A DNA stretch of 64,000 nt, from contig JACRMN010000024.1 of NCBI GenBank assembly GCA_016214955.1, forward strand, positions 62,001-126,000. The letters run 5' to 3'. The position numbers and the translations under genes are program-made. Shown here piece after piece: positions 24,801 through 63,388 of this stretch (within the stretch, counting starts at the first letter, position 1; each line of letters begins with the position of its first letter). Under the pieces are notes generated by a model that did not search any database, was not told the DNA's origin, and saw only the letters and a list, made by a program, of their open reading frames with translations. Source of the stretch: Deltaproteobacteria bacterium. GTDB lineage: Bacteria; Myxococcota; Myxococcia; Myxococcales; Anaeromyxobacteraceae.

Positions 24801-26858
24801 GTGCTCAACCTGCTGCTCCCCGCCCTGCTCGCCGCCGCACCGGCCGCGCCCCCGCCGCTGCGGGCAGCGGTCGACGAGGCCGCCGCCGCCCTGGTGAAGC
24901 GCCACGGAGAGGCCCACCGCCCTTCCATCGAGCGCGGCCTCCGCCAGGCCGCCGCGCTGTGGCGCCCGGCCGACGGGGACGCCCGGGCCTTCCGCGCCCT
25001 GGCCGAGGAGCAGTTCAGAGCCAGCCCGGAGGAGCGGGAGGCCCTGCTGGCCCGCTTCGAGCGGGTGCTGGAGCAGCTCGACGGCACCGCCGCCGAGGCC
25101 AACCGCGCCCTGCGCTGGGCCACCGACGTGGACCGGGGGCCGGTGCTCCCGGTCGACCCGCTCTTCGCGGCCCTCGACGCCGGGGCACACCAGGACGAGG
25201 ACCTCTTCGCCGGCAAGCTGGCCTTCGTTGCCCTGCTCAACTTCCCCCAGGCCACCCCCGAGGAGCGGCAGGCCCAGGGGGCGGGCTGGAGCCGGCGCCG
25301 CTGGGCCGAGGACCGGCTGACGAGCCGCTTCGCCCTCCGCGTCCCGGCCTCGGCAACCCAGGCGATGGCCCGCGCCGCGGCCGACGCCGAGATCTACATC
25401 GCCGGGTACAACCTCTGGGTCCACCACCTGGTGACCGGCGACCCGCGCCAGCCGGAGCGGCTCTTCCCCGCCGGCCTGCGGCTCCTCTCCCACTGGAACC
25501 TGCGCGACCAGATCCGGTCCGACTACGCCGGCGAGGGCGGCCTGCCGCGCCAGCGGCTCCTGCAGAAGGCCATGGAGCGCATCGTCGACCAGACCATCCC
25601 GGCGGCGGTGGTGAACGACCCCGCCGTGGACTGGAACCCCTTCACCAACCAGGTCTGGCCGGCGCCGGCCGCCGCCATCGAGGGAGGCGCGCCCCCGCGG
25701 GCGCGAGTGGATGGGGCCCGCGAGCCCGACAGGCGCTACGCCGTGCTCCTCGACCTCTTCCGGGCGGGGCGCCTGGCCGACCCCTGGTCGCCGGCCACGC
25801 CCACGCTGGTGCAGCGCCGCTTCGACCTCGACCGGGGCCTGCCCGAGGCCCGGGTGGTGGCCCTGCTCCGCGAGGTGCTCGACGCGCCGGTGCGGCCGCG
25901 CCTGGCGCGCCTCATCGAGAAGCGCATGGGGCGCAAGCTCGAGCCCTTCGACATCTGGTACGACGGCTTCCGGCCCCGCTCGCGGCACGCCGAGGCCGAG
26001 CTGGACGCGCTCACCCGGCAGCGCTACCCCGACGCCGACGCCTTCCGGCGCGACCTGCCGCGCATCCTGGGCGCGCTGGGCTTCGCCCCCGAGAAGGCCC
26101 GCTTCCTCGCCGAGCACATCGCCGTCGATCCAGCACGCGGCTCGGGCCACGCCCAGCCGGCCGGCCGCCGCAGCGACCTCTCCCGGCTGCGCACCCGCGT
26201 CGGCGCCGGCGGCATGGACTACAAGGGCTACAACATCGCCGTCCACGAGCTGGGCCACAACGTCGAGCAGGTCTTCAGCCTCCACGGGGTGGACTCCACC
26301 CTGCTCGCCGGCGTGCCCAACAACGCCTTCACCGAGGCGCTGGCCTTCGTCTTCCAGGCCCGCGACCTGGAGCTGCTGGGGCTGGGCAGGCCGGACGCCG
26401 AGGCCCAGGGGCTGCAGGCCCTCGACGCCTTCTGGTCCACCGCCGAGATGGCCGGCGTGGCGCTGGTGGACATCGGGGTCTGGCGCTGGATGTACCAGCA
26501 CCCGCGGGCCACCCCGGCGGAGCTGCGCCAGGCCACGCTCCGCGCGGCCCGCGAGGTCTGGAACGCCCACTTCGCGCCGCTCTTCGGCGTCCGCGACTCC
26601 CCGCTCCTGGCCGTCTACAGCCACATGATCGGCTACCCGCTCTACCTGCCCGACTACCCGGTGGGCTACCTCATCGCCTCGCAGGTGGAGGAGAGGCTCC
26701 GCGCCGAGCCGGCGCTGGGGCCGGAGTTCGAGCGGATGGCGCGCATCGGCAAGGTGGCGCCCGACGTCTGGATGCGGAGCGCCGCCGGCGAGGCGGTCTC
26801 GGCGGGCGCGCTGCTCCGCGCCGCCGCGGCGGCCCTCGACGTGGAGGAGAGGCGCTAG
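24801..26858 (+). CDS. Secreted zinc metallopeptidase-like protein (HELGH)
   Basis: A 685-residue protein with an N-terminal signal segment. The zinc motif HELGHN is at residues about 482-487, and a candidate third ligand, Glu512 in AFTEALAFVF, follows 26 residues later; this is the gluzincin arrangement used by M3-like oligopeptidases. The rest is helical with many Arg and Ala, as in M3/M2 families, but I cannot place it in a known family. GGAGGTGGCCC precedes the GTG at 24801. It ends on a CTAG shared with the opposite-strand kinase gene, so the two stops overlap. Confidence 0.7.
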   Translation: MLNLLLPALLAAAPAAPPPLRAAVDEAAAALVKRHGEAHRPSIERGLRQAAALWRPADGDARAFRALAEEQFRASPEEREALLARFERVLEQLDGTAAEANRALRWATDVDRGPVLPVDPLFAALDAGAHQDEDLFAGKLAFVALLNFPQATPEERQAQGAGWSRRRWAEDRLTSRFALRVPASATQAMARAAADAEIYIAGYNLWVHHLVTGDPRQPERLFPAGLRLLSHWNLRDQIRSDYAGEGGLPRQRLLQKAMERIVDQTIPAAVVNDPAVDWNPFTNQVWPAPAAAIEGGAPPRARVDGAREPDRRYAVLLDLFRAGRLADPWSPATPTLVQRRFDLDRGLPEARVVALLREVLDAPVRPRLARLIEKRMGRKLEPFDIWYDGFRPRSRHAEAELDALTRQRYPDADAFRRDLPRILGALGFAPEKARFLAEHIAVDPARGSGHAQPAGRRSDLSRLRTRVGAGGMDYKGYNIAVHELGHNVEQVFSLHGVDSTLLAGVPNNAFTEALAFVFQARDLELLGLGRPDAEAQGLQALDAFWSTAEMAGVALVDIGVWRWMYQHPRATPAELRQATLRAAREVWNAHFAPLFGVRDSPLLAVYSHMIGYPLYLPDYPVGYLIASQVEERLRAEPALGPEFERMARIGKVAPDVWMRSAAGEAVSAGALLRAAAAALDVEERR

Positions 26859-29425
26859 CGCGGCGCGCGGGCCAGCGTGCGCTCGAAGCGCGGGTCGGCG
26901 CGCAGCGGTGCGAAGCGCGGGTCCACGCGGGCCGCGGCCGCGGTGATGAGCCCGTCGGGCCGCGCCAGCACCTGGTGGAGCGCCGCCAGCGCCCAGTCGG
27001 GCTGGCCGGCGGCGGCGGCGATCTCCACCGTCAGGCGCAGGAGCGGCGTCCGGCGCCCCTCCTCGCGGGTGTCGGCCGCTGCCTGGCGCAGCTCGGCCAT
27101 GGCCTCCTCGCCCCGGCCCACGCCCGCCAGGGCGCGCGCCAGGAAGAGCCGCTGCAGGCCCCAGCCGGGCGCCTCGGCCACCGCCCGCCGCAGCGAGGGC
27201 ACGGCCTCCTCGAAGGCGGCCCGCGCCTCCCGGTCCCTCCCCAGGGCCGCCAGGGCGGTTCCGGAGAGCAGGGCCCGCGGCAGGTGGGGCGAGGTGGAGA
27301 AGGGCTCGGGGAGGCGCCCCGCCTCGGCGAAGGCCAGGGCCTGCTCGGGCAGGAGCGAGAAGAGCTGGTAGAGCGACCAGGCGCCGTCGCCGGTGTTGGG
27401 CAGGTCGCGGGGCAGCTCCTCCACCGCGCGCCGCGCCGGCGCCAGGTCGCCGTCGCGCCAGGCGGGGATCAGGGCGCAGAGCACCAGGGCGTGGATGTCG
27501 CCGGGGGCCAGCGTCCGGGCCAGCGCACAGGTTCGGCCCGCCTCGTCGTAGCGCCGCGCCCGCGCCTGGTCGGCCGCCAGGGTGACCGACACCAGGTAGG
27601 AGCGCGGGTCGCGCAGCAGCGCCTCCTGCATGTCGGCCAGGCCGGCGTCGAGGTGGCCGGCGAGCGTGCGCAGCTCGCCCAGGCCGAGCCGCAGCCCCAC
27701 GTCGTTGGGCGCATCCCGGACCGCGGCCTCGTACTCGCGCAGCGCCTCCGGGTAGTTCCTCTCGCAGAAGTACAGCCAGGAGGCGGTGGCGGCGTGGGCG
27801 TGCGGAAGCTCGGGCTGGAGGGCCCGAGCCCGCTCGGCGTGGAGCTTGCCCCCCGCGCAGTCGCCTCGCGCCTCGGTCTGGACGATGGCCAGCCAGGCGT
27901 GGGCCAGGGCGAAGCTCGCGTCGCGGGCGGCCGCCTTGGCCAGCAGCTCCTCGGCCATCTGGTTGTCGGCCTCCACCCCCACCGAACGCTGCCAGTAGTA
28001 GACGCCGCGCCGGAAGAGCTCGTAGGCCTCGGCGTCGCGGGTGGGAGGCTGGACCAGGGCCTTGCGCTCGCCGGCGCTGAGGGTGGCGCCCAGCGTCTGG
28101 GCGATGTCGAGCGCCACCTCGCTCTGGATGGCGAAGACGTCGGAGAGGTCCCTGTCGTACCGCTCGGCCCAGAGCGGGTGGCCGCCGGCCGGATCGACGA
28201 GCTGCACGGCGATGCGCACCCGCTGGCCGGACCGCTGCACCGTGCCCTCGAGCAGGGCCGCCACGCCCAGCTCGGCGGCGATGTGCCTGGGGTCCCGCGG
28301 CCCCTCGCGGTAGCCCAGCACCGAGCCGCGGGCGATGACCCGCAGGCCGGACACCTTGGCGAGCTGGGTGATGAGCTCGCCGTGGATGCCCTCGGCGAAG
28401 AGGGCGTCGTCGGGGTCCGACGAGAGGGTGGCGAAGGGCAGCACCGCCACCGAGGGCGTCCCGGCCCCGGGCGGGCGCGCCAGCCGGTTCCCGAGGATGC
28501 CGCCCACGGCGGCGGCGGCGAGGAGCAGCGCCGCCGCGCCGGCCCAGAGCCCCACCCGCTTGCCCCGCGGGCGGGCCGACGCCAGCGGCTCCAGCGCCTG
28601 CAGGACCGCCTGGCCGTCGCGCGTGCGCGCCGCCGGGTCCCGCTCCAGCATCCGCGCCAGCACCGGCCAGAGCCGGCGGTGGCCCAGCAGCTCCGGGGGG
28701 GCGGGCCGCTCCGGCGCCGGCGTGGCCCGGCCGGTCTCCGAGGGGAACGGCAGCTGCCCGGAGAGCATCTGGTAGAGCATCACCCCCAGGGCGTAGACGT
28801 CGGCCCGCTCGTCCTCGTGGGCGCCCGACCCCTGCTCCGGCGCCATGTAGGCCGGGGTCCCGCCGCTGACGCGCTGGCGGCCGAAGGCGTGGGCCATGCC
28901 GAAGTCGAGCACCTTGACGGCGCCGCCTTCGCAGAGGAACACGTTGGAGGGCTTCAGGTCGCGGTGGACGACGCCGGCGGCGTGGGCGTGGGCCATGCCG
29001 CGGGCCACCTCCACCGCCACCCGCAGGGCCTCGGAGCGCGGCAGGGGGCCGCCCTGGAGCCGCTGCGCCAGCGTCTGGCCGCGCAGCAGCTCCAGCACCA
29101 GGTAGGGGCCGCGGTCGCAACGCCCCACGTCGAAGAGGGTCACCAGGTTGGGATGGGAGAGCCGGGCGATGGCCTCGGCCTCGCGCTCCAGCTGCTCGCC
29201 GCCCAGGTCGCTGGTCCCGGGGCGCACCGCCTTGAAGGCCACCAGGCGGCCCAGCTCCCTGTCGCGCGCCTCGAAGACCACGCCGAACCCGCCCCGGCCC
29301 AGCTCGCGCACCATCTCGAACCGGCCGATGATCTCGCCCGGGAGGATGAAGCTCTCCCAGGCGTCGCCCGGGTCGGTGGTGGCGGCCAGCTCCTTGAGGA
29401 GGGCCGACAGCGCCTCGGGCTGCAT
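26855..29425 (-). CDS. Membrane Ser/Thr kinase with TolB/FlgO-like domain and TPR tail
   Basis: An 856-residue protein. Kinase domain at about residues 36-285 with all key motifs: GRGGFG loop, Lys65 (AFKAV), HRDLKPSN (154-161), DFG (174-176), and GTPAYMAPEQ. One TM helix follows (about 291-313). Residues about 324-460 begin SVAVLPFATLSSDPDD, a domain often found after signalling modules (FlgO/TolB N-like, also in adenylate cyclases). The remainder is a series of TPRs. It probably senses or scaffolds something on the outer face and phosphorylates cytoplasmic targets. ATG 29425 is preferred; GTG codons just upstream are possible. Paralogue of the gene at 61535. Confidence 0.88.
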   Translation of the reverse strand: MQPEALSALLKELAATTDPGDAWESFILPGEIIGRFEMVRELGRGGFGVVFEARDRELGRLVAFKAVRPGTSDLGGEQLEREAEAIARLSHPNLVTLFDVGRCDRGPYLVLELLRGQTLAQRLQGGPLPRSEALRVAVEVARGMAHAHAAGVVHRDLKPSNVFLCEGGAVKVLDFGMAHAFGRQRVSGGTPAYMAPEQGSGAHEDERADVYALGVMLYQMLSGQLPFPSETGRATPAPERPAPPELLGHRRLWPVLARMLERDPAARTRDGQAVLQALEPLASARPRGKRVGLWAGAAALLLAAAAVGGILGNRLARPPGAGTPSVAVLPFATLSSDPDDALFAEGIHGELITQLAKVSGLRVIARGSVLGYREGPRDPRHIAAELGVAALLEGTVQRSGQRVRIAVQLVDPAGGHPLWAERYDRDLSDVFAIQSEVALDIAQTLGATLSAGERKALVQPPTRDAEAYELFRRGVYYWQRSVGVEADNQMAEELLAKAAARDASFALAHAWLAIVQTEARGDCAGGKLHAERARALQPELPHAHAATASWLYFCERNYPEALREYEAAVRDAPNDVGLRLGLGELRTLAGHLDAGLADMQEALLRDPRSYLVSVTLAADQARARRYDEAGRTCALARTLAPGDIHALVLCALIPAWRDGDLAPARRAVEELPRDLPNTGDGAWSLYQLFSLLPEQALAFAEAGRLPEPFSTSPHLPRALLSGTALAALGRDREARAAFEEAVPSLRRAVAEAPGWGLQRLFLARALAGVGRGEEAMAELRQAAADTREEGRRTPLLRLTVEIAAAAGQPDWALAALHQVLARPDGLITAAAARVDPRFAPLRADPRFERTLARAPR

Positions 29426-29580
29426 CACCCGCGATGGGGCATCGCGGCCCGTCTCGTCGCGGGGCGGCTGCACGTGTCGCTCGTCCAAAGCGTGCAGGGT
29501 ATCAGGCACTCCGGGCCCTGTCTCGCGACCGCGGGTGGCGGCTCCGGCGGATCCTCCGGCGGAACGCCTTCGGCCGCCGG

Positions 29581-39688: not shown

Positions 39689-40411
39689 ATGGGACGCATC
39701 TTCGAAACGCGCAAGGCTACGATGTTCGCCCGCTGGAACCGGATGGCGAAGGTCTTCACCCGGATCAGCAAGGACATCGCCATCGCCGTGAAGTCCGGCG
39801 GGCCCCACCCCGAGAACAACCCGGCCCTCCGGCGCGCGCTGCAGAACGCCCGCGGCTCCAACATGCCCAAGGACAAGGTCGAGGCGGCCATCAAGCGCGC
39901 CAGCGGCCAGGACCAGCAGGCCTACGAGGTGGTGCTCTACGAGGGGTACGGTCCCCACGGCGTGGCGGTGGTGGTGGAGACGGCCACCGACAACGGCGTG
40001 CGCACCGTGGCCAACGTGCGCATGCACTTCAAGAACCACGGCGGCAACCTGGGCACCACTGGCAGCGTGGCCTTCCAGTTCCAGAAGATGGGCGTCTTCC
40101 GGCTGGCGCCCGAGGGGCTCGACCTGGAGGCCCTGGAGCTGGAGCTCATCGACCACGGTCTCGAGGAGATGGGCGAGAGCACCGGCGAGAAGGGCGAGAA
40201 GCAGGTGGTCATCCGCTGCGCGTTCCAGCACTTCGGCCAGCTCCAGGCCGCCCTCGAGGAGCGCAAGCTCCCGGTGATCTCGGCCGAGTCGGAGTACGTG
40301 GCCCAGACGCCGGTGCAGCTCCCCGAGGAGCAGGCCAAGGAGGTCCTCGAGATGGTGGACGCCCTGGAGCAGGACGAGGACGTGCAGCGCGTCTTCCACA
40401 ACCTGGCCTGA
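39689..40411 (+). CDS. YebC/PmpR-type transcriptional or translational regulator
   Basis: A 240-residue protein of the YebC/TACO1 family with [28 protein letters not shown] and [18 protein letters not shown] as the most conserved parts. The N-terminus is the variant [23 protein letters not shown] rather than the MAGHSKW form. Family members were described as transcription regulators and more recently as helpers of translation through difficult sequences (the mitochondrial TACO1 and bacterial YebC work). No ruvC or ruvA genes are nearby, though they often are for canonical yebC. Confidence 0.9.
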
Positions 40412-40750: not shown

Positions 40751-41701
40751 ATGTCCCTTCCGCTAGCCGCCGCGCTCGCCGCCGCCTTCCTCGGCGCCGA
40801 CGCTCCGCGCGTGGATCCCGCCCTCCCCGCCTACCGGCCCGCCTCGTCGCTCTCCGGCACCCTGGCCGTCGGCGGCTCCGACACGCTCGACCCGGTGGTC
40901 CAGCTCTGGCTCACGGGCTTCCGCAACGCCCACCCCAACGTGCAGGTCCGCTCCTCTGCCCAGGGCTCCGAGGCCGGCTTCCTGTGCCTGCTGGAGAGCA
41001 CCTGCGGCGTCGCCACCATGAGCCGCGAGATGAGCAAGGTGGAGGTGGCGGCCTTCGAGGCCAAGCACGGCCACGCCCCGACCCGCCTCGTCGCCGCCGT
41101 TGGCGCACTGGCGGTGTTCGTCCACCCCAGCAACCCCCTCGGCTCCATCTCCATGGAGCAGCTCGATGCCGTGTTCTCCATGACCCGCAAGGCGGGCGGG
41201 AAGGAGCCCATCACCTCCTGGGGCCAGCTCGGCCTCTCCGGCGACTGGGCCGGCCGGCGCGTGACGCCCTACGGCCGCGACGAGCACTCCGGCACCCGGA
41301 ACTTCTTCAAGGAGAAGGTGCTGCTGAAGGGCGACTTCCGCCCCTCCGTCAACGCCATGGGCGATGCCCAGTCGCAGCTCGAGGCGGTGATGCTCGACGC
41401 CACCGGCATCGCCTACGGCTCCTTCAACGACGTCAACTCGATGGTCAAGGTGCTGCCCATCGTCCAGCCGGGCGGCGCCGCCACCGCGCCCACCATCGAC
41501 GCCATCATGAACGGCAGGTACTCGCTGGTGCGCTTCTTCTACATCTACGTGAACCGCGCCGCGGGCAAGCCGCTGCCGCCGCTGGTCTCGTCCTTCGTCT
41601 CGTACGGCCTCTCCAAGGACGGGCAGACCCAGGTGGCAGCCGCCGGCTTCATCCCCATCCCGGCCGATCTGGCCAAGTCCTCGCTCCAGCGCATCCAGTG
41701 A
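40751..41701 (+). CDS. PstS-like substrate-binding protein
   Basis: A 316-residue exported binding protein of the PstS-type fold (PBP_like_2). A short signal segment precedes the family start TLAVGGSDTLDPVVQLWLTGF. The ligand site of the phosphate-binding group is recognisable in GGSDT, SREMS and RDEHSGTRNFF. No pstC, pstA or pstB is in the window. Its stop overlaps the next gene's GTG (GTGA at 41698-41701), so it is translated with a kinase-like protein; this suggests a ligand-sensing role rather than transport. CAGGAGCAGCGC precedes the ATG. Confidence 0.82.
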   Translation: MSLPLAAALAAAFLGADAPRVDPALPAYRPASSLSGTLAVGGSDTLDPVVQLWLTGFRNAHPNVQVRSSAQGSEAGFLCLLESTCGVATMSREMSKVEVAAFEAKHGHAPTRLVAAVGALAVFVHPSNPLGSISMEQLDAVFSMTRKAGGKEPITSWGQLGLSGDWAGRRVTPYGRDEHSGTRNFFKEKVLLKGDFRPSVNAMGDAQSQLEAVMLDATGIAYGSFNDVNSMVKVLPIVQPGGAATAPTIDAIMNGRYSLVRFFYIYVNRAAGKPLPPLVSSFVSYGLSKDGQTQVAAAGFIPIPADLAKSSLQRIQ

Positions 41702-43341
41702 CCGGGAGCGGACAGCCAGGGTCCTCGGGCCCGGCGGAGGCCGGCTCCACCATCGGCGGCTACCGCGTGCTGCGCCCCTGCCCCGTCGGCGAGCAGGACG
41801 AGCCCTGCTTCCTGGTCTGGGACCCGGCCTCCCGCCAGCAGGCGGTGCTCCAGACCCATCCCTCCACGCCTCCCGAGGGGCGGAAGATCCTCCTGGCGCG
41901 CTTGCAGAACGACGCCGACGTCTCGGCGGCCCTGGCCCACCCCGGCGTGGTCCGCGTGCTGGGCGTGGGGACCGATCCCGTGAGCGGGCCCTTCCTGGTC
42001 CGCGAGTTCGTCGACGGCCCCAGCCTCCGGGCGCTGCCGCACATGGAGGTGGACCTGCAGGCGGCGCTCTCCATCCTGATCCAGGCGGCCCACGCGCTGG
42101 TGGCGGCCGACGCCGCGGCGGTGGCGCCGCGCAACCTGCGGCTCGAGCACCTCTTCATCACCCGCAGCGGACAGGTGAAGGTCACGGTCTTCGGGCGTCC
42201 GCACATCACGCCGCCGGCCCCGGCCACCAGCGCCTACGACCTGGCGCGCGTCGGCCTGGAGCTCATCACCGGGCAGGACCCCTTCCCGGCCGGCGAGGCC
42301 CAGGGCGCGCCGCGGATCCCGGTGGCGCTCGACAAGGGGCTGACGTCGGCCTTCACCCGCGCGCTCTCCCCTTCTCCCGAGAGCCGCTTCCCGGGCCTCA
42401 TCCCCTTCGTGCAGGTGCTGGTCGCGGAGGCGCCGCTCAGCGAGGAGATCCGGGCCGAGCTCCTCGAGCTCTCCGACCGGACCGACCCGATCCTCGGCGA
42501 GGCGTGTGTCGCCGCCTGGGCACGAGACGTCTGGCGCGAGGGGCAGGTGCCGACCAGCACGCCGGTCCCGGAGCAGCCCGCGGGCCTCCCGCTGGCCTCG
42601 CCGCCCACGCTCCGGCTTGTCACCGAGCCGCCCGGCGGAGCCTCCGCTCCGCCTCTCAGGCCGCCCGCCGCGGCCGCGCCTCCCCCCGCGACGGATCGGG
42701 CCCCCGGCCGCGCCGCCGCCCCCGTCGCCTCGCCCGCGCCCGTCGTGCCGGACGCAGCCCGCGCCTCCGGCACCGCGACGCACCCCCCGCCCAGGCCGCG
42801 CCGCTCGGCCGCCTGGATCGCCCTGACCGTGGCCGCAGCAGCCCTGACGGCGGGGGCCTGGTTCACCCTCTCCGGCCGCCCGCGGATGGTGGAGGTGGTC
42901 ACGGCGCCGCCGGGCGCGCAGGTGCGGCTGGGCGGAAGGCTCCTCGGCAACGCGCCGCTGCGGGTCGCCGTTCCCCGGGAGGGAGGCTCCGTCGTCCTCT
43001 CGCTCGAGGGCTTCCTGCCGCGGGAGGCCGCGTTCCGGCCCGGCGAGGAGCGGCTCGAGGTGGCCCTGCAGCCCGTTCCGCCGCCGCCGCCGCCACCGCC
43101 CCCCGAGCCTGCGCCGCAGGAGCGGCCGCCCGAGGTGCCTGCCGGTGCCGCCGCGGTGGAGGCGGCGCCACCTGCCGCCGTGCCAGCGCCCGAGCCGATG
43201 CCGGAGAAGCCGGCCGAGCCCAAGGCGGCCCGGCCCGCGAAGGCCAAGGCCAAGCCCGCCAGGAAGGCCCCGGCGAAGCCTCCGCCCAGGAAGGGCTTCG
43301 ATCTCTTCCAGCACCTGCAGAAGGAATCGGAACGGGGCTAG
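41698..43341 (+). CDS. Kinase-like protein without catalytic residues, TM helix and PEGA domain
   Basis: A 547-residue protein. Residues about 20-250 align with a Ser/Thr kinase fold, but the key residues are changed: the VAIK lysine position reads Gln, HRDLKPEN reads PRNLRLEH (about 144-151), and DFG reads VFG (164-166). It should therefore be a pseudokinase. A Pro-rich linker is followed by one TM helix (about 370-390) and a PEGA domain (VEVVTAPPGAQVRLGGRLLG), then Pro and Lys/Ala-rich tails ending FDLFQHLQKESERG. The PEGA domain lies outside. GTG start overlaps the PstS-like stop by 4 bp. Confidence 0.8.
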   Translation: MTGSGQPGSSGPAEAGSTIGGYRVLRPCPVGEQDEPCFLVWDPASRQQAVLQTHPSTPPEGRKILLARLQNDADVSAALAHPGVVRVLGVGTDPVSGPFLVREFVDGPSLRALPHMEVDLQAALSILIQAAHALVAADAAAVAPRNLRLEHLFITRSGQVKVTVFGRPHITPPAPATSAYDLARVGLELITGQDPFPAGEAQGAPRIPVALDKGLTSAFTRALSPSPESRFPGLIPFVQVLVAEAPLSEEIRAELLELSDRTDPILGEACVAAWARDVWREGQVPTSTPVPEQPAGLPLASPPTLRLVTEPPGGASAPPLRPPAAAAPPPATDRAPGRAAAPVASPAPVVPDAARASGTATHPPPRPRRSAAWIALTVAAAALTAGAWFTLSGRPRMVEVVTAPPGAQVRLGGRLLGNAPLRVAVPREGGSVVLSLEGFLPREAAFRPGEERLEVALQPVPPPPPPPPPEPAPQERPPEVPAGAAAVEAAPPAAVPAPEPMPEKPAEPKAARPAKAKAKPARKAPAKPPPRKGFDLFQHLQKESERG

Positions 43342-43359
43342 CCCCGCTCCGCCCCGCCG

Positions 43360-44841
43360 GTGCGCCCCAGCCTCCTCCGCGGCACGCTGCCCGCCCTGGC
43401 GCTGGCCTGTGGCTGCGCCGCGAGCCCTCTGCTCCCCGAGCGGCCCTCCGATCCGGTCGAGGCGCGGATGGCCACGGCCGTCGAGAAGACCCTCTTCGCC
43501 GTGCCGATGGCCGACGAGCGGGAGGCCACGGTCCGCGCCTACCTGGAAGGCGGACTCTCCGCCCTCGCGGTCCGCGACCCGGTGCTCCGCGTCGCCGTTC
43601 TGGACCGGGCCATCCGGGTCGGCGGTCCCGGCGGCGAGCACTCGCCGATCCCCCTGCCCGGGGGCTGGGAGGAGGGCGCCGATCGGCTGCGCGGCGAGAT
43701 CGCGCTCGCGGTGGCGCGCGCCGTCGGCGAGCTCCGGCGCCGGTCGCCGGCCCTGGCCGCGCTGCCTCCCGGCACCGTCGAGGAGCTCTTTTTGCGCGGG
43801 GCGCTGGGCCGGATCGATCCCGAGGGGCTCGTCCACCGCGCGCGCGACCTGCCTCCTCCCGCCGCGCGGCCCGCCGGATCCGTGGGCCTCGTGCTCCACG
43901 CGACCCCCGCCGGGGCCGAGGTGATCGGGGTGCTGGCGGGAAGCCCGGCCGACGAGGCCGGCATCGAGCGGGGCGCGCTGTTGCTGGCCGTCGACGGCCG
44001 GAGCACGGCCGGCCTTCCCGCGCCGGCGGTGGAGGCGCGCCTGCAGGGCGAGCTGGGCTCGCGGGTGCAGCTCGAGGTGCGCGGCCGGACCGGCCGCCGG
44101 GCGCTGGAGCTCTCGCGCCGGCGGGTGGTGCCCGTCCTGGGCCGGCCGGAGCGGCTGGGGGCGGGCCTTGTCTGGCTGCGGCCCCACGGCCTCGCCGGCG
44201 GCCTCGGCCGGGTGCTGCTCCAGGCGGTGCGCGACGCCGCCGGAGCCGGCGCGGTGCTGGACCTGCGCGGCAATCCCGGGGGCCCGCCAGCGGTCGTCGG
44301 CGAGGTGGCCGGGCTGTTCGTGGAGCGCGGCCGGCTCTACGCCGTCGCCGGACGCGACCCGGCCGTGGTCGAGAAGGCGGGCGGCGAGACGCCGCTGGCC
44401 CACCTGCCGCTGGTGGTGCTCGTGGACGAGGCGACGGCGGGGAGCGCCGAGCTGCTGGCCGCCTCCCTGCAGGACCACCGCCGCGCCGCCGTGGTCGGCA
44501 GCCGCACCGCCGGCCGCGGCGTGATCCAGGTGACCCATGAGCTCGGCCCCTCCCCGGACGACCTCCAGATCCGGGTGACTGCCGGGCGGCTGGCTCGCCC
44601 CGGGGGCGCGCGCATCCAGGGCGCGGGCGTGCAGCCGGACCTGTGCACCACCCACCCGCAGCCCTCCGGGTCGGACGGCGAGGAGCTCCCGCGACTGCTC
44701 GCCCTGCCGCGGGGGGACTGCCCGCGACGCCGCCTGGAGCCGCCGCCCGGCGGGCCGGACCGCGAGGTGGCGCTCGCCGCCTCCCTGCTGCGGTCGCCGG
44801 CGCTCCTCGAGCAGGCGCTGCGCCGGCCGCCGGCGCGCTAG
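43360..44841 (+). CDS. S41/PDZ peptidase-like lipoprotein with altered catalytic residues
   Basis: A 493-residue protein with a lipoprotein-like signal (ALACGCAAS). A PDZ domain lies at about 180-250 (VIGVLAGSPADEAGIERGALLLAVDG), then an S41 C-terminal-processing-peptidase fold (VLDLRGNPGG, VLVDEATAGSAELLAASLQDHRRAAVVGSRTAGRGVIQV). In active CtpA/Prc the Ser is at S-A-x-E and a Lys sits in GKG; here these read G-S-A-E and GRG, so both catalytic positions appear substituted. It may be a binding or scaffold protein. Start GTG 43360, 18 bp after the pseudokinase gene. Confidence 0.75.
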   Translation: MRPSLLRGTLPALALACGCAASPLLPERPSDPVEARMATAVEKTLFAVPMADEREATVRAYLEGGLSALAVRDPVLRVAVLDRAIRVGGPGGEHSPIPLPGGWEEGADRLRGEIALAVARAVGELRRRSPALAALPPGTVEELFLRGALGRIDPEGLVHRARDLPPPAARPAGSVGLVLHATPAGAEVIGVLAGSPADEAGIERGALLLAVDGRSTAGLPAPAVEARLQGELGSRVQLEVRGRTGRRALELSRRRVVPVLGRPERLGAGLVWLRPHGLAGGLGRVLLQAVRDAAGAGAVLDLRGNPGGPPAVVGEVAGLFVERGRLYAVAGRDPAVVEKAGGETPLAHLPLVVLVDEATAGSAELLAASLQDHRRAAVVGSRTAGRGVIQVTHELGPSPDDLQIRVTAGRLARPGGARIQGAGVQPDLCTTHPQPSGSDGEELPRLLALPRGDCPRRRLEPPPGGPDREVALAASLLRSPALLEQALRRPPAR

Positions 44842-44918: not shown

Positions 44919-46136
44919 ATGAAGACCCGCCTCGCGGCGCTCGCCCCCCTGACCCTGGCCGTGCTGCTCGCCCTCCCGGGGCCGGCGAGGGCCGCGGCCC
45001 GCTACCACATCGGCGTCATCACCGGCACGGTCTCCCAGTCGGAGGACGACCTGCGGGGCGCCGAGGCGCTCATCGCCGAGTACGGCGACGTGAAGGGCGG
45101 GGGGATGATCCAGCACCTCACCTATCCCGACAACTTCATGACCGAGCAGGAGACCACCATCTCCCAGATCGCGTCGTTGGCCAACGACCCGCTGATGAAG
45201 GCCATCGTCATGAACCAGGCGGTGCCCGGGGCCACCGAGGGGTTCCGCCGGGTGCGCGAGGCCCGCCCCGACATCCTGCTGCTGGCCGGCGTGCCCCAGG
45301 AAGACCCGCTCGTCATCTCCTCGGTGGCCGACCTGGTGATGCGCAACGACTTCGTCTCCGCCGGCTACCGGGTGGTCTGGACCGCCAAGCAGCTCGGGGC
45401 CAGGACCTTCGTCCACATCTCCTTCCCGCGTCACATGAGCGTCGAGACCCTGACCCGCCGCCGGATGATCATGGAGCAGGCGGCCCGCGACCTGGGCCTC
45501 ACCTTCGTCTTCGAGACCGCACCCGACCCGACCAGCGACGTGGGCGTCGTCGGCGCCCAGCAGTTCATGCTGGAGAAGGTGCCCCAGTGGGTGCGGAAGT
45601 ACGGCAAGGAGACCGCCTTCTACGCCACCAACGACGCCCACACCGAGCCGCTCATCAAGCAGGTGGTGGAGCACGGCGGCATCTTCGTGGAGGCCAGCCT
45701 CCCCTCCCCGCTCCTCGGCTACCCCGGGGCCCTGGGAATCGACCTCAAGGCCGAGAAGGGCAACTTCCCCGCCATCCTCAAGAAGGTGGAGGCGGCGGTG
45801 GTGAAGAAGGGCGGCACGGGGCGGCTCGGCACCTGGGCCTACTCCTTCGGCTACTGCGCCACCGCCGGCATGGGCCAGCACGCCATCAACGTCCTCGACG
45901 GCAAGTCCAAGATGACCAGCATGACCGACCTCTTCCAGGCCTTCGGCAAGTACACCCCGGGCTCGCGCTGGGGCGGCGCCTGGTACGTGGACGCCTCCAC
46001 CGGCGTCCGGCTGAAGAACTTCGCCCTGCTGCTCCAGGACACCTACGTCTTCGGACGCGGATTCATGAAATCGGCGGAGATCGACGTCCCCGAGAAGTAC
46101 CTGAAGATCCAGTCGGGCCTGCGGAAGAGGCCCTAG
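44919..46136 (+). CDS. DUF3798-like ABC transporter substrate-binding protein
   Basis: A 405-residue exported protein with a signal peptide (LTLAVLLALPGPARA). The mature part starts YHIGVITGTVSQSEDDLRGAEALI and contains FYATNDAHTEPLIKQVVEHGGIFVEA, the two-lobe alternation seen in type I periplasmic binding proteins. From memory it fits DUF3798, which is uncharacterised. Its position directly before an RbsA-like ATPase and two permeases makes it the binding protein of that importer. GGAGG lies 8 nt before the ATG. Ligand unknown; a nucleoside or sugar is likely from the ATPase and permease types. Confidence 0.78.
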   Translation: MKTRLAALAPLTLAVLLALPGPARAAARYHIGVITGTVSQSEDDLRGAEALIAEYGDVKGGGMIQHLTYPDNFMTEQETTISQIASLANDPLMKAIVMNQAVPGATEGFRRVREARPDILLLAGVPQEDPLVISSVADLVMRNDFVSAGYRVVWTAKQLGARTFVHISFPRHMSVETLTRRRMIMEQAARDLGLTFVFETAPDPTSDVGVVGAQQFMLEKVPQWVRKYGKETAFYATNDAHTEPLIKQVVEHGGIFVEASLPSPLLGYPGALGIDLKAEKGNFPAILKKVEAAVVKKGGTGRLGTWAYSFGYCATAGMGQHAINVLDGKSKMTSMTDLFQAFGKYTPGSRWGGAWYVDASTGVRLKNFALLLQDTYVFGRGFMKSAEIDVPEKYLKIQSGLRKRP

Positions 46137-46154
46137 GCGGGAGCGGGCTCCGAC

Positions 46155-47762
46155 ATGGTGGGCGGCGCGCCGGCACTCCGGCTGCGGGGGATCGGCAAGT
46201 CCTTCGGCGAATCCCGGGTCCTCGAGGACGTCTCCCTCGAGGTGGCCCCGGGCGAGGTGGTCGGGCTCGTCGGCGAGAACGGCGCCGGCAAGTCCACGCT
46301 GATGCGCATCCTCTTCGGCATGCCGATCATCCGGGAGACCGGCGGCTACCAGGGCTCGGTCGAGGTGGCCGGCCAGGAGGTGCGCTTCCGCTCCCCCTTC
46401 GACGCCCTCGACGCCGGCATCGGCATGGTCCACCAGGAGTTCTCGCTCCTGCCCGGCTTCACCGCCGCCGAGAACATCCTCCTCAACCGCGAGCCGCTGC
46501 GCCGCTCGGCCCTCGACGAGGTCTTCGGCGAGCGGCTCTCGCTCCTCGACCGGGCCGCCATGGAGGCCCGGGCCCGGCGCTCCATCGAGCGGCTGGGCGT
46601 GCCGCTCGACCCGGCCATGCTGGTCAAGGAGATGCCGGTGGGCCACCGGCAGTTCACCGAGATCGCCCGCGAGCTCGGGCGCGAGGGACTCCGGCTGCTG
46701 GTGCTCGACGAGCCCACCGCCGTGCTCACCGAGAGCGAGGCCGCCACCCTGCTCGGCCGGCTGCGGGCTCTGGCCGCCGAGGGCGTGGCCATGATCTTCA
46801 TCTCCCACCGGCTCGGCGAGGTGCTCTCGCTCTGCCAGCGGGTGGCGGTGCTGCGCGACGGGCGGCTGGTGCAGGACCTGCCGGCCGGGCGCACCTCGGT
46901 GCGCGGGCTGGCGGCGGCCATGGTGGGCCGGGAGATGGCGGCCGCCACCGGCGCCGAGCCCCGGACCTTCCCCGCCGGCGAGCCGCTGCTCGAGGTCGAG
47001 GGGCTGTGGGTGGACATGCCGGGCGAGACGGTGCGCGACGCCACCTTCTCGGTGGCCCGCGGCGAGATCCTGGGCATCGGGGGACTCGCCGGCCAGGGCA
47101 AGCTCGGCATCCCCAACGGCCTCATGGGGCTGCACCCGGCGGGCGGGCGGGTGCGCTACCGCGGCCGGCCGCTGCCCCTGGGCGAGCCGCGGGCGGCGCT
47201 AGAGGCCGGGCTGGCCTTCGTCTCCGAGGACCGGCGCGGGGTGGGCCTGCTGCTCGACGAGGGCATCGACTGGAACGTCGCCTTCGGGGCCATGCAGGTG
47301 CAGGGCGCCTGCCTGCGCCCGCTCCTCGGCGGCCTCCTGCAGTGGCGGTCCGACGCCGCCATGGCGTCGCTCGCCGCCGGGTACGTGAAGGAGCTGGAGA
47401 TCCGCTGCACCGGCGTGCGCCAGAAGGCCGGGACGCTCTCGGGGGGCAACCAGCAGAAGGTGTGCCTGGCGCGGGCCTTCGCCCTCTCGCCGGAGCTGCT
47501 CCTGGTGGCCGAGCCGACCCGCGGGATCGACGTGGGAGCCAAGGAGCTGGTGCTGGCGGCGCTCCGGCGGCTCAACCGCGAGCGGGGCACCACCATCGTG
47601 GTCGTCTCCTCGGAGCTCCACGAGCTGCGGTCGCTGTGCGACCGCATCGCCATCGTCTACGAGGGGCGCATCGCCGGCCACCTGCCGGCCTCCGCCGCGC
47701 TGGAGGAGCTGGGACTGCTCATGGCCGGGGCCGCCACGGCCCCGCCGCCGGAGGCCCGGTGA
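46155..47762 (+). CDS. RbsA/BmpA-type ABC transporter, double ATP-binding protein
   Basis: A 535-residue fused ATPase with two nucleotide-binding domains. The first has an intact Walker A (GENGAGKST), Walker B (LLVLDEPTAVL) and a degenerate signature (PVGHRQFTEIAREL). The second has a degenerate Walker A (GLAGQGKLGI) but a good signature (LSGGNQQKVCLARAF), LLVAEPTRGIDVGAKE and an H-loop replaced by Ser in VVVSSELHEL. This asymmetry is normal for sugar and nucleoside importers. 18 bp after the binding-protein gene; overlaps the first permease by 4 bp. Confidence 0.93.
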   Translation: MVGGAPALRLRGIGKSFGESRVLEDVSLEVAPGEVVGLVGENGAGKSTLMRILFGMPIIRETGGYQGSVEVAGQEVRFRSPFDALDAGIGMVHQEFSLLPGFTAAENILLNREPLRRSALDEVFGERLSLLDRAAMEARARRSIERLGVPLDPAMLVKEMPVGHRQFTEIARELGREGLRLLVLDEPTAVLTESEAATLLGRLRALAAEGVAMIFISHRLGEVLSLCQRVAVLRDGRLVQDLPAGRTSVRGLAAAMVGREMAAATGAEPRTFPAGEPLLEVEGLWVDMPGETVRDATFSVARGEILGIGGLAGQGKLGIPNGLMGLHPAGGRVRYRGRPLPLGEPRAALEAGLAFVSEDRRGVGLLLDEGIDWNVAFGAMQVQGACLRPLLGGLLQWRSDAAMASLAAGYVKELEIRCTGVRQKAGTLSGGNQQKVCLARAFALSPELLLVAEPTRGIDVGAKELVLAALRRLNRERGTTIVVVSSELHELRSLCDRIAIVYEGRIAGHLPASAALEELGLLMAGAATAPPPEAR

Positions 47763-48802
47763 GCGGCGCCCGCAGGCTGCTGGCCGAGTTCGGCCTGCCC
47801 CGGGTGATCATCGCCCTGTTCCTCCTCGGTCTCTTCGCCGCCGCGCCGCTCGTGGGCGTGAGCCTGGCCGCCTCGCTCTCCGACACCGTGGTGCGCTTCG
47901 GGATGAACGGCATCCTGGTGCTGGCGCTGGTGCCGATGATCCAGTCGGGCTGCGGCCTGAACTTCGGCCTGCCGCTCGGCGTCCTGGCCGGCCTGCTGGG
48001 CGCCACGCTCAGCATCGAGATCGGCCTCACCGGCCCCGGCGGCTTCGCGGCTGCCGCCGGCATCTCCCTGGGCTTCGCCGCCCTCTTCGGCCTGGGCTAC
48101 GGCGTGCTGCTCAACCGGGTGAAGGGCGGCGAGATGATGATCGCCACCTACGTGGGCTTCGCCTCGGTGATGTTCATGTGCATGGCCTGGCTGGTGCTCC
48201 CCTACCGGAGCCCGACCATGATCTGGGGCTTCGGGGGCGAGGGGCTGCGGACCACCATCTCGGTGGAGGGCTTCTGGCTCCGCGTCCTCGACGACTTCCT
48301 CTCGGTGCGCATCGGCGAGGAGTTCCGCTTCCCCACCGGGCTGCTGCTGGCCTTCGGGGCCGCGGCCGCGCTGGTGTGGGGGTTCTTCCGGCTCCGGGTG
48401 GGCACGGCCATGACCGCCGCGGGCCAGAACCCCGTCTACGCCCGGGCGGCGGGCGTGGACGTGGACCGGATGCGCACCCTCTCGGTGGTCCTCTCCACCA
48501 TGCTGGGGGCGCTGGGCATCCTGGCCTTCCAGCAGAGCTTCGGCTTCATCCAGCTCTACCAGGGGCCGTTCTACATGGCCTTCCCGGCGGTGGCCGCCAT
48601 CCTCATCGGCGGGGCCAGCGTCAGCCGGGCCAGCCTGGTCCACGTGCTGGTGGGCACCTTCCTGTTCCAGGGCATCCTCACCATGACCCCGTCGGTCATC
48701 AACTCGGTGGTCAAGGCCGACATGTCCGACGTCGTCCGGGTCATCGTCTCCAACGGGATGATCCTCTACGCGCTGACCCGTCGCCCGGCGGAGGGACGAT
48801 GA
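47759..48802 (+). CDS. Sugar/nucleoside-type ABC permease, subunit 1
   Basis: A 347-residue membrane protein of the BPD_transp_2 family (RbsC, YufP and related), with about 8-10 hydrophobic helices. Family segments: LVPMIQSGCGLNFGLPLGVLAGLLG, GTAMTAAGQNPVYARAAGVDVDRM (coupling-helix region) and AILIGGASVSRASLVHVLVG. The GTG start overlaps the ATPase stop by 4 bp and its stop overlaps the second permease start by 4 bp (ATGA), so the set is translationally coupled. The Cys in QSGCGLNFG is notable in the membrane segment. Confidence 0.9.
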   Translation: MSGARRLLAEFGLPRVIIALFLLGLFAAAPLVGVSLAASLSDTVVRFGMNGILVLALVPMIQSGCGLNFGLPLGVLAGLLGATLSIEIGLTGPGGFAAAAGISLGFAALFGLGYGVLLNRVKGGEMMIATYVGFASVMFMCMAWLVLPYRSPTMIWGFGGEGLRTTISVEGFWLRVLDDFLSVRIGEEFRFPTGLLLAFGAAAALVWGFFRLRVGTAMTAAGQNPVYARAAGVDVDRMRTLSVVLSTMLGALGILAFQQSFGFIQLYQGPFYMAFPAVAAILIGGASVSRASLVHVLVGTFLFQGILTMTPSVINSVVKADMSDVVRVIVSNGMILYALTRRPAEGR

Positions 48803-49890
48803 ACCGCCTGCGCCGGCTCCTGGCCGAGAACGCGGTGGTGCTGCTCTTCGCGGCCCTCATCGCCGCCGCCATCCCGCTCTCCGGAGCGCCGCCGCTCTAC
48901 CTGCTCCAGGAGGTGCTGACGCGCCTGGGGCGCAACGCGGTGCTGGTGCTCTCGCTCCTGCTGCCGGTGATGGCCGGCATGGGGCTCAACTTCGGCATGG
49001 TGCTGGGCGCCATGGCCGGGCAGATCGGCCTCATCCTGGTGACCGACTGGGCCATCGTGGGCCTCCCGGGCCTGACGCTGGCGGCCATGCTGGCCACGCC
49101 GGTGGCGGTGCTGCTCGGCTGGCTCTGCGGCGCGGTGCTCAACAGGGCCAAGGGCCGGGAGATGGTCACCGGGTACATCCTGGGCTTCTTCGTGAACGGC
49201 CTCTACCAGCTGGTGGTGCTCTACGCCATGGGGAGCCTGATCCCCATGCTCAACCCGGAGCTGGTGCTCTCCCGCGGCTACGGCGTGCGCAACGTCATCA
49301 ACCTCACCGGCGTGCGCCAGGTGCTCGACCGGCTGGTGCCGGCGCGCATCGGCGGCATCCAGCTCCCGGTGTTCACCTACGCCCTCATCGCCGCCATGTG
49401 CCTCTTCGTGGTCTGGTTCCGGCGCACCAAGCTGGGCCAGGACATGCGTGCGGTGGGGCAGGACCGGGCGGTGGCCGACGCCGCCGGCATCCCCGTGGAG
49501 CGGACCCGCATCCTGGCGATCGTGCTCTCCACGCTGCTGGCCTGCTACGGCCAGATCGTCTTCCTGCAGAACCTGGGCACCCTCAACACCTACAACTCCC
49601 ACGAGCAGGCCGGCATGTTCTCCATCGCCGCCCTGCTCATCGGCGGCGCCTCGGTGACCCGCGCCTCCATCCCCAACGTGCTGGTGGGCGTGGTGCTCTT
49701 CCACCTGCTGTTCATCGTCTCCCCCACCGCCGGCAAGAACCTGGTGGGCTCGGCCCAGCTCGGCGAGTACTTCCGGCAGTTCGTGAGCTACGGGGTCATC
49801 GCCGTGGCCCTGGTGCTCTACGCCTGGCGCAAGCAGGCGGGCGAGCAGCAGGCCCGCGCCGCCCTGCGGGGCCCGGGGGTGGGCACGTGA
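48799..49890 (+). CDS. Sugar/nucleoside-type ABC permease, subunit 2
   Basis: A 363-residue membrane protein paralogous to the preceding one. It keeps the same landmarks: LLPVMAGMGLNFGMVLGAMAGQ, GQDMRAVGQDRAVADAAGIPVERTR and ALLIGGASVTRASIPNVLVG. The two subunits probably form a heterodimeric channel, as in nucleoside (BmpA-linked) importers. ATGA overlap with subunit 1 on one side and with the small exported protein on the other (GTGA, 49887-49890). Confidence 0.9.
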   Translation: MNRLRRLLAENAVVLLFAALIAAAIPLSGAPPLYLLQEVLTRLGRNAVLVLSLLLPVMAGMGLNFGMVLGAMAGQIGLILVTDWAIVGLPGLTLAAMLATPVAVLLGWLCGAVLNRAKGREMVTGYILGFFVNGLYQLVVLYAMGSLIPMLNPELVLSRGYGVRNVINLTGVRQVLDRLVPARIGGIQLPVFTYALIAAMCLFVVWFRRTKLGQDMRAVGQDRAVADAAGIPVERTRILAIVLSTLLACYGQIVFLQNLGTLNTYNSHEQAGMFSIAALLIGGASVTRASIPNVLVGVVLFHLLFIVSPTAGKNLVGSAQLGEYFRQFVSYGVIAVALVLYAWRKQAGEQQARAALRGPGVGT

Positions 49891-50354
49891 GCCGGACCCG
49901 CCGCCGCGCGTTCCTGCGGGCCGCGCTCCTCGCCGGCGCGGTGGTGCTGGGGGCCTGGCTGGCGCGGACCGGCCGGGCCCATACCCTGTTCCTCGACAAT
50001 GCGGCGGTGACCCTCGGCGGGCAGGAGCACCCGGCTCCCGGCGCCGTCGAGGTGAGCCTCGACGGTGGCAAGCCGGAGGTGCTGGAGCAGGCGGAGCGGG
50101 CCATGCGCCAGGTGGTGGGGCCGGTGCACCGGCTGGCCATCGAGGTCCGCCAGGGGCCCGGCGGGCCGCGGCGCGTGGAGCGGGAGATCAGGCTGCCCTT
50201 CGGGTGGGACGCGGCGGTGGTCTCGCTCCCCGCGGCGCTGGCCGGCGCGCCGGCCGGGGCGGTGGTGACCCGCTGGCAGCCGCCGCCGCCCGAGGATGCC
50301 CCGGCCGAGCAGATGATCCAGCAGAAGGACGCCGACGTGCTGCCGCAGCGCTAG
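49887..50354 (+). CDS. Small exported protein in the ABC importer operon
   Basis: A 155-residue protein with an N-terminal signal or TM segment after a TRRRAF twin-Arg-like start ([21 protein letters not shown]), then a mature part beginning [16 protein letters not shown]. The Arg-Arg start raises a Tat route but the match is incomplete. No family is known to me. Its GTG overlaps the second permease stop by 4 bp, so it belongs to the importer. It could be an accessory subunit at the periplasmic face. The mature domain looks beta-rich. Confidence 0.65.
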
Positions 50355-61534: not shown

Positions 61535-63388
61535 GTGCCCGAGGTCGAGCCACAGTCCGAAGCCGGGGCCGAGCAGCTGCCCGGAGATCTCTCCCGGCTG
61601 CTTCGAGAGCTGGTCCAGGCCCCACCCGCCGAGCTGGGCGGTGCCTGGGACCAGTGGCTCTGGCCCGGCCAGGTGGTGGCCCACTTCGAGCTCTTGCGGG
61701 AGATCGGCCGCGGCGGTTTCGGCGTCGTCTGGGAGGCCCGCGACACCCACAGCGGCGCGCGGGTGGCCTTCAAGGCCCTGCGGGCCGGCGGCGGCGCCTC
61801 GCCGCGCGAGGACCGGCTGCTGCGGGAGGCGGAGCTGGCCTCGCGCCTCACCCACCCGGGCATCGTCGCCTTCCGGACGGCAGGGCGGACCGAGCACGGA
61901 CCCTACCTCGTCCTGGAGCTGCTGCACGGGCGCACGCTGGCCGAGCGGCTGGAGGCGGGGGCCGTCGCCCCGCGCGAGGCGGTGCGCGTGGGCCTGGCCG
62001 TGGCGGAGGCCGTCGCCCACGCCCACGCCCAGGGGGTGGTCCACCGCGACCTCAAGCCGGCCAACGTCTTCCTCTGCGACACCGGCGAGGTGAAGGTGCT
62101 CGACTTCGGACTGGCCCACGCCTTCGGCCACCGGCGCGTGGGCGGCGGCACGCCGGCCTACATGGCCCCGGAGCAGTGGCGCGGCGCGCCCGAGGACGAG
62201 CGGACCGACGTCTTCGCGCTCGGCGTGATGCTGTACCGGATGCTGGCCGGCGCCCTGCCGTTCCCCGGCGAGCGGGGGAGCGCCGGCCCGGGCGCCTGCC
62301 CGGCGCCGGAGCTGGAAGTGCCCGGCGCGCCGGAGCTCGGCCGGCTGGTGGCGCTCCTGATCGAGGAGGACCCGGTCCGGCGCCCCCGCGACGGCGAGGC
62401 GGTGGTGGCGCCGCTGGCCCGGTGCCTCGCCGAGCTCGAGCGCGCGCCCGAGTCGGCGGTGCGGCAGCGACCGCGCGGGGCGGCGGAGACGGCGCCGCCC
62501 ACGGCAGGGCAGGCCCAGGCGGAGGAGTACTGCGTGCGCGGCCGGCAGTTCCTCCGCGAGGTCCGCAAGGCCAGCCTGCTCTTCGCCCGCGAAATGTTCG
62601 CCCGCGCCATCCGCGTGGACCCTGGCTCGGCGCTGGCCCAGGCGGGCTACGCCGAGGCCATCGCCCTCCTGCACCTCTACTACCCGCCCGACCAGGCGCA
62701 GCTCGCCGAGGCCGACCGGGCCAGCCTGCGCGCCATGGCGCTCGCCCCGGACCTGGCGGCCGCCCACGTGGCCCGGGGCCTGACCCTCTTTCGCCTCCGG
62801 CGCGGCGCCGAGGCCCGGGAGGCCCTGGAGCGGGCCATGGCCATGGACCCGTCGCTCTCCGAGGCCTACTACTACGCCGCGCGCACCGCCTTCGAGGACG
62901 GGCGGATCGCGGACGCGGCAGCGCTCTTCGCCAGCGCCGCCCGGGTCCGGGAGAGCTACCCGGCGAGCTTCTTCGCCGCCCAGGCGCTGGAGGCCCTGGG
63001 GCGCCGGGAGGAGGCGCGGGCGGCATACGCCGAGGCGCTACGGGTGGTGGAGCGCCACATGGACCTCAACCCCGACGATCCCCGGGCGGCCACCATGCGG
63101 GCGGTGGCCCTGTGCCGCCTCGCCCGGCCCGACGAAGGGCTGCACTGGGCCGAGCAGGCGCTGGCCATCGATCCGCAGGACGCGGGCGTCCGCTACAACG
63201 TGGCCTGCCTCTACGCCCTGGAGGGCCGGACGGAGGAGGCCTTCGCCCGCCTGGCGGAGGTGGTGAAGGTGGGCTTCGGCTCGGCCGACTGGTTCCGGCG
63301 CGACCCCGACCTGGCCTCGCTCCGCGGCGACCCGCGCTTCGAGCGGCTCATGGCCGAGTCCGCCGCGGCCTCGCGGAACGGCCCCTAG
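61535..63388 (+). CDS. Cytoplasmic Ser/Thr kinase with TPR tail
   Basis: A 617-residue protein. Kinase domain about residues 48-300 with intact motifs: GRGGFG loop, Lys80 (AFKAL), HRDLKPANVFL (170-180), DFG (190-192), GTPAYMAPEQ. No TM helix follows, unlike its paralogue at 26855-29425. The C-terminal half (about 330-610) is TPRs, ending in ...LRGDPRFERLM, the same ending as the paralogue. Starts at GTG 61535. Its stop overlaps the opposite-strand CoA-transferase stop through a CTAG. Role unknown; the TPR tail likely recruits substrates. Confidence 0.88.
   Translation: MPEVEPQSEAGAEQLPGDLSRLLRELVQAPPAELGGAWDQWLWPGQVVAHFELLREIGRGGFGVVWEARDTHSGARVAFKALRAGGGASPREDRLLREAELASRLTHPGIVAFRTAGRTEHGPYLVLELLHGRTLAERLEAGAVAPREAVRVGLAVAEAVAHAHAQGVVHRDLKPANVFLCDTGEVKVLDFGLAHAFGHRRVGGGTPAYMAPEQWRGAPEDERTDVFALGVMLYRMLAGALPFPGERGSAGPGACPAPELEVPGAPELGRLVALLIEEDPVRRPRDGEAVVAPLARCLAELERAPESAVRQRPRGAAETAPPTAGQAQAEEYCVRGRQFLREVRKASLLFAREMFARAIRVDPGSALAQAGYAEAIALLHLYYPPDQAQLAEADRASLRAMALAPDLAAAHVARGLTLFRLRRGAEAREALERAMAMDPSLSEAYYYAARTAFEDGRIADAAALFASAARVRESYPASFFAAQALEALGRREEARAAYAEALRVVERHMDLNPDDPRAATMRAVALCRLARPDEGLHWAEQALAIDPQDAGVRYNVACLYALEGRTEEAFARLAEVVKVGFGSADWFRRDPDLASLRGDPRFERLMAESAAASRNGP

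Follow-up and report, generated by a model that had tools for sequence, protein, structure and literature searches.

The window, a stretch of 64,000 nucleotides on contig JACRMN010000024.1 of an Anaeromyxobacteraceae genome assembly (5.3 Mb, 30 contigs), contains three genes, here termed A, B and C, that follow one another in the same orientation on the + strand (Table 1). The ATG of A is preceded at six bases by AGGAG, B starts with GTG at 41698, so that the four overlapping bases (GTGA) are shared with the stop codon of A, and C starts with GTG at 43360 after a gap of 18 bp; these coordinates and spacings are all as the first-pass annotation had given them. The A-C stretch deviates neither in GC content nor in codon use, and GC3 is normal at 0.93-0.95 in long intact frames, while the coding scores of B and C (0.29 and 0.36 per amino acid, respectively) are the lower ones of the region. 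A 10-bp inverted repeat, CGGAACGGGGCTAGCCCCGCTCCG, at 43328-43351 includes the stop codon of B, lies immediately 5' of C and is terminator-like on the - strand only. Upstream of A is yebC (39689-40411), and 77 bp past C begins an operon for a DUF3798 ABC transporter (44919-50354; Pfam), which comprises a DUF3798 binding protein, an ABC ATPase, two permeases and a DUF6672 protein.

Table 1. Features of the three-gene cassette and of a second PstS-type locus in the host genome.
Feature	Coordinates	Strand	Basis or remark
Gene A, transporter-less PstS-type periplasmic binding protein, 316 aa	40751-41701	+	PF12849, TIGR02136, solved relatives
Gene B, transmembrane Hanks-type pseudokinase with PEGA domain, 547 aa	41698-43341	+	Overlaps A by 4 bp
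B, pseudokinase domain, ~residues 20-235, cytoplasmic	41755-42402	+	Alignment with five active Hanks kinases
B, degenerate catalytic loop, VAPRNLRLE where VHRDLKPEN is canonical	42121-42147	+	Same alignment
B, VFG replacing DFG	42187-42195	+	Alignment with active Hanks kinases
B, predicted transmembrane segment, ~residues 371-389, PRPRRS just before (positive inside)	42808-42864	+	Hydropathy scan
B, PEGA domain, residues 399-447, extracytoplasmic by topology	42892-43038	+	PF08308
Gene C, S41/PDZ pseudoprotease, probable lipoprotein, 493 aa	43360-44841	+	Pfam, motif alignments
C, PDZ domain, residues 188-241	43921-44082	+	PF17820
C, S41 core, residues 292-428	44233-44643	+	PF03572
C, Gly361 at catalytic Ser position	44440-44442	+	Homolog alignments
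C, Arg386 at catalytic Lys position	44515-44517	+	Homolog alignments
Second transporter-less PstS-type protein and sensor histidine kinase	Contig C3, ~152.3-154.5 kb (L224:5272-7470)		

The product of A matches PF12849 above the Pfam cut-off (E 1.3e-29), while its match to the curated PstS family TIGR02136 (E 5.7e-54) scores 183.3 bits, under the cut-off of 206.6. Among solved structures, A is closest to the phosphate-binding proteins 4omb and 4pqj (E 2e-77), and the alignment with them extends over the whole length from the mature N-terminus onward. The R-x4-SGT and MSR stretches are retained, and at the SGT anion-binding loop YGRDEHSGTR of A aligns with FGRNSVSGTY of 4omb, in keeping with the PBP_like_2 fold. 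A is thus similar to the P. aeruginosa-type PstS (4omb, 4pqj) over its full length, in the mature N-terminus (VDPALP-Y) and in the SGT loop, but differs from it by the lack of adjacent pstCAB, by the pseudokinase gene next to it and by the lower TIGR02136 score; the aeruginosa PstS is, to go by its title, the topic of a 2014 paper in FASEB J (cited in PMC5498041). As the first-pass annotation had remarked, no PstC, PstA or PstB gene adjoins A. The host genome encodes four PF12849 proteins besides A, and a complete pst operon with its own PstS is located on a separate contig (C12), in the order PhoB-PhoR-PstS-PstC-PstA-PstB-PhoU, where PstS was named from its PF12849 match and the others were read from their translations. 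Because this operon lies elsewhere in the genome, A is regarded as a transporter-less PstS and not as the PstS of the main transport system. Among relatives, the closest homolog of A is 39% identical and lies inside a pst operon. The host genome carries a second transporter-less PstS-type protein, the gene of which precedes that of a sensor histidine kinase by 3 bp (Table 1). Elsewhere, at L099 and L100 (G035:C78, ~55.6-82.8 kb) and also at L101-L103, L234 and L235, PstS-like proteins form arrays with up to about ten members; these arrays lack pst transporter genes and adjoin a TonB-dependent receptor, a response regulator and a sensor kinase, and similar sets with a TonB receptor, a PepSY protein and several substrate-binding proteins are present on Azoarcus and Paraburkholderia plasmids.

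B combines a PEGA domain (PF08308, E 9.9e-6, over the cut-off) with weak Pfam kinase matches (0.004 and 0.065) and a match to the PknB family NF033483 across residues 65-166 (E 4.1e-14). The PRPRRS stretch before the hydrophobic segment places the kinase domain inside and the PEGA domain, which is followed by a Pro/Ala/Lys-rich tail, outside. When aligned to active Hanks kinases from the same window and from relatives, B has lost the Gly loop and the VAIK Lys, and reads APRNLRLEH instead of HRDLKPEN, so that the loss of the VAIK Lys, the HRD Asp and the DFG Asp described in the first-pass annotation is confirmed. Furthermore, the whole activation segment with APE/SPEQ is missing, which the first-pass annotation had not mentioned. 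By its motifs B is a bacterial Hanks-type pseudokinase, with a recognisable kinase domain from which all three catalytic residues have been lost. Among the other PEGA proteins of the host genome is a kinase that reads HRDLKPDN and appears to be active, so that the combination of kinase and PEGA domain is present there in active form, of which B is a dead version. The window encodes two Hanks-type kinases (26855-29428 on the - strand and 61535-63388 on the + strand) that carry TPR repeats, retain intact motifs and served as active references. An AlphaFold model of B, built from 3 sequences, was too poor to use (pLDDT 42).

Bacterial Ser/Thr pseudokinases have received little experimental study, but some that act by binding are known (PMC12599244). 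The transmembrane pseudokinase EssB/YukC serves as a scaffold; its Gly loop is degraded, all three motifs are lost and the activation loop is shortened (PMC12599244). B resembles it in having a cytoplasmic pseudokinase domain, one transmembrane segment, an extracytoplasmic part and the same degraded elements, but its outer part is a PEGA domain and no type VII secretion genes were seen adjoining; the YukC/EssB family is absent among the Pfam matches of B at E up to 1. The clean absence of the activation segment, as in EssB/YukC, suggests that B is a long-standing pseudokinase. The pseudokinase domain of MviN (ActPs3 family) is likewise membrane-linked and Hanks-type with a deletion in the activation loop, and recruits an inhibitory protein (PMC12599244); the pattern of B matches it in part, although B is not fused to a flippase. 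In Myxococcus, EcpK has been proposed as a scaffolding pseudokinase (PMC12004946).

C consists of an S41 core (PF03572, E 6.1e-28) and a PDZ domain (PDZ_6, PF17820, E 6.5e-9), and scores 130.3 bits against the curated Prc family TIGR00225, under the cut-off of 218.6. Judged by eye, as were the signal peptides in general, VRPSLLRGTLPALALAC is compatible with a loosely defined lipobox (Cys17 in LALAC), and C is probably a lipoprotein. Where all 19 Myxococcota S41 proteins of relatives that were compared read SASASE...GKG, with which 21 homologs from a genome scan agree, C reads TAGSAE...GRGVIQ. The HMMER alignment to the solved C-terminal-processing protease 9ku0 puts Gly361 and Arg386 in the same register, and the replacement of the catalytic Ser by Gly and of the Lys by Arg, as originally proposed, is borne out by all of these comparisons and by the Azospirillum homologs. 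The latter, plasmid proteins that are 33% identical and the only near full-length relatives of C found, read SASSAE...YGKGSVQ and share with C its N-terminal region as well as a pair of C-terminal Cys residues. The Azospirillum plasmid S41 subfamily (L231-L233, ~5.9-7.5 kb) is itself marked by the N-terminal extension, the C-terminal Cys pair and SASSAE. Given that the Ser following the catalytic one is ancestral in this subfamily, Ser362 of C corresponds to the non-catalytic neighbour, and in TAGSAE the nucleophile has been cleanly lost rather than moved. That C is still a protease, using Ser362 one position past the usual site together with another base, is very improbable, since the Azospirillum homologs rule out a moved nucleophile and the Lys is also changed to Arg. 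A frameshift cannot account for the motif losses either, because the flanks remain in frame and GC3 is normal. The surroundings of the altered dyad are well conserved (Asp301-Leu-Arg, Gln390, the PDZ domain and the C-terminal Cys pair), and C looks like a catalytically dead member of the Azospirillum SASSAE subfamily. An AlphaFold model from 22 sequences was too poor to use (pLDDT 51).

Retinol-binding protein 3 (IRBP) has a non-protease role and works as a binder. It is S41-related and was matched by C (PDB 9frx), but unlike C it is an animal multi-module protein with another domain order. The literature searched yielded no account of a bacterial S41 pseudoprotease. Compared with the CtpA-type S41 C-terminal-processing proteases (9ku0/9jr1, 7rpq), C has the same PDZ domain and S41 core, but the catalytic Ser and Lys are replaced, C is itself a probable lipoprotein, and it has the extra N-terminal region and the C-terminal Cys pair found in the Azospirillum homologs. 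For P. aeruginosa CtpA, a passage of PMC11021448 states that the protease is inactive before the lipoprotein LbcA binds.

The A-B-C gene order was absent from 60 relatives searched with A, B and C separately, which also lacked a close ortholog of C, and, searched with A, from 145 genomes at the class level; with C as query, neither the order nor a close ortholog of C was found at the family (24 genomes) and phylum (146 genomes) level. A scan of ~85,000 species returned no close C ortholog and only generic proteases (~30%), nearly all of them alphaproteobacterial; the scan relies on short peptide patterns, so that distant orthologs may escape it. In 17 genomes of the family, none of A-C lies next to yebC. 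At the loci checked beside A-like proteins, there was no kinase with an HRD[LIV]K motif and none matching B; viral contigs searched with the kinase alignment gave no match, and neither did plasmids searched with B, while A matched on plasmids only ordinary PstS and transporter-less PstS-like proteins. The cassette is therefore confined to one species in the sample, which includes two congeners whose genomes are 81% and 87% complete and in which it could fall in an assembly gap. Likewise, none of the 60 relatives yields a match to the DUF3798 protein at E 1e-60, so that the whole 40.7-50.4 kb stretch appears to be lineage-restricted.

Gene packing and topology make a joint role of the three proteins in the envelope plausible. 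The first-pass annotation had proposed a shared function across the envelope; the kinase domain inside, the PEGA domain and C outside, and the tight coupling of the genes speak for this, whereas the search for the same order in other Myxococcota genomes revealed no conservation between species, an outcome that this annotation had itself named as refuting and that weakens the case for a shared function. Since the order is repeated in no genome examined, we infer the shared function from packing, topology and precedents, just as ligand, physical complex, direction of signalling and output are parts of a proposed model. In this model A, which derives from PstS and would no longer serve a pst transporter, may act in the periplasm by binding phosphate or a comparable oxyanion, and C, derived from a C-terminal-processing protease, could hold a peptide or protein with its PDZ domain and substrate groove. 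B would join both to the cytoplasm, with the PEGA domain and the long Pro/Ala/Lys-rich tail outside, and its pseudokinase domain may recruit or regulate partners through binding, without phosphorylation. We tentatively favour the reading that A, B and C are expressed together and form an envelope sensor or scaffold that is specific to the lineage and works without catalysis. This is in view of the gene packing, the fold signatures that persist in both degenerate enzymes, the conserved surroundings of the altered dyad in C, the R-x4-SGT loop kept by A, the pst operon located elsewhere, the PstS-type protein/histidine kinase pair in the host, the known kinases activated by solute-binding proteins and the pseudokinases that act by binding. 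In pairs of a solute-binding protein and a sensor histidine kinase, the binding-protein gene is directly 5' of that for a membrane signalling protein, as in A-B, but the partner of A is a Hanks-type pseudokinase. Many kinases that are activated by a solute-binding protein adjoin its gene, but a recent test indicated that a functional link or interaction between such neighbours is not always present (PMC11113362).

Next in rank, and somewhat unlikely, is that the three genes form one transcription unit with unrelated jobs, in which A would be a spare phosphate-binding protein, B a scaffold derived from a kinase and C a pseudoprotease with a partner of its own. The missing conservation of gene order is consistent with this, as are the separate settings of the nearest relatives, which are found in pst operons (A), as free-standing active kinases (B) and alone in Azospirillum (C). 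However, the 4-bp overlap and the 18-bp gap imply co-translation or tight co-expression, and three envelope proteins including two pseudoenzymes are improbable as a random set. Unlikely is also a relaxed selection, by which an active kinase and an active protease have recently lost function and are heading for loss. Both active sites are lost, the coding scores of B and C are the lower ones of the region and only a single species is represented, but the frames are long and intact with normal GC3, B lacks its activation segment as cleanly as EssB/YukC does, and C has kept the remaining S41 core despite the changed dyad. Least probable of these readings is that A, B and C belong to the downstream DUF3798 ABC transporter operon, as an accessory to it or in its regulation. 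This operon lies on the same strand, with no terminator-like site on the + strand, and may have arrived together with the cassette, given that the DUF3798 protein is also absent from the 60 relatives. Against this, none of the relatives was found to carry both, the transporter already possesses a binding protein (DUF3798), and a separate promoter would fit into the 77 bp.

The favoured sensor or scaffold could be taken further, to a transmembrane complex that consists wholly of repurposed parts and signals by binding alone, with a catalytic step in none of the three proteins, although this stronger form is doubtful. The arrangement has so far been seen in one species, which calls for as much caution as it merits interest: a cassette that couples a pseudokinase and a pseudoprotease to a phosphate-type binding protein would provide a compact test of catalysis-free sensing at the envelope.
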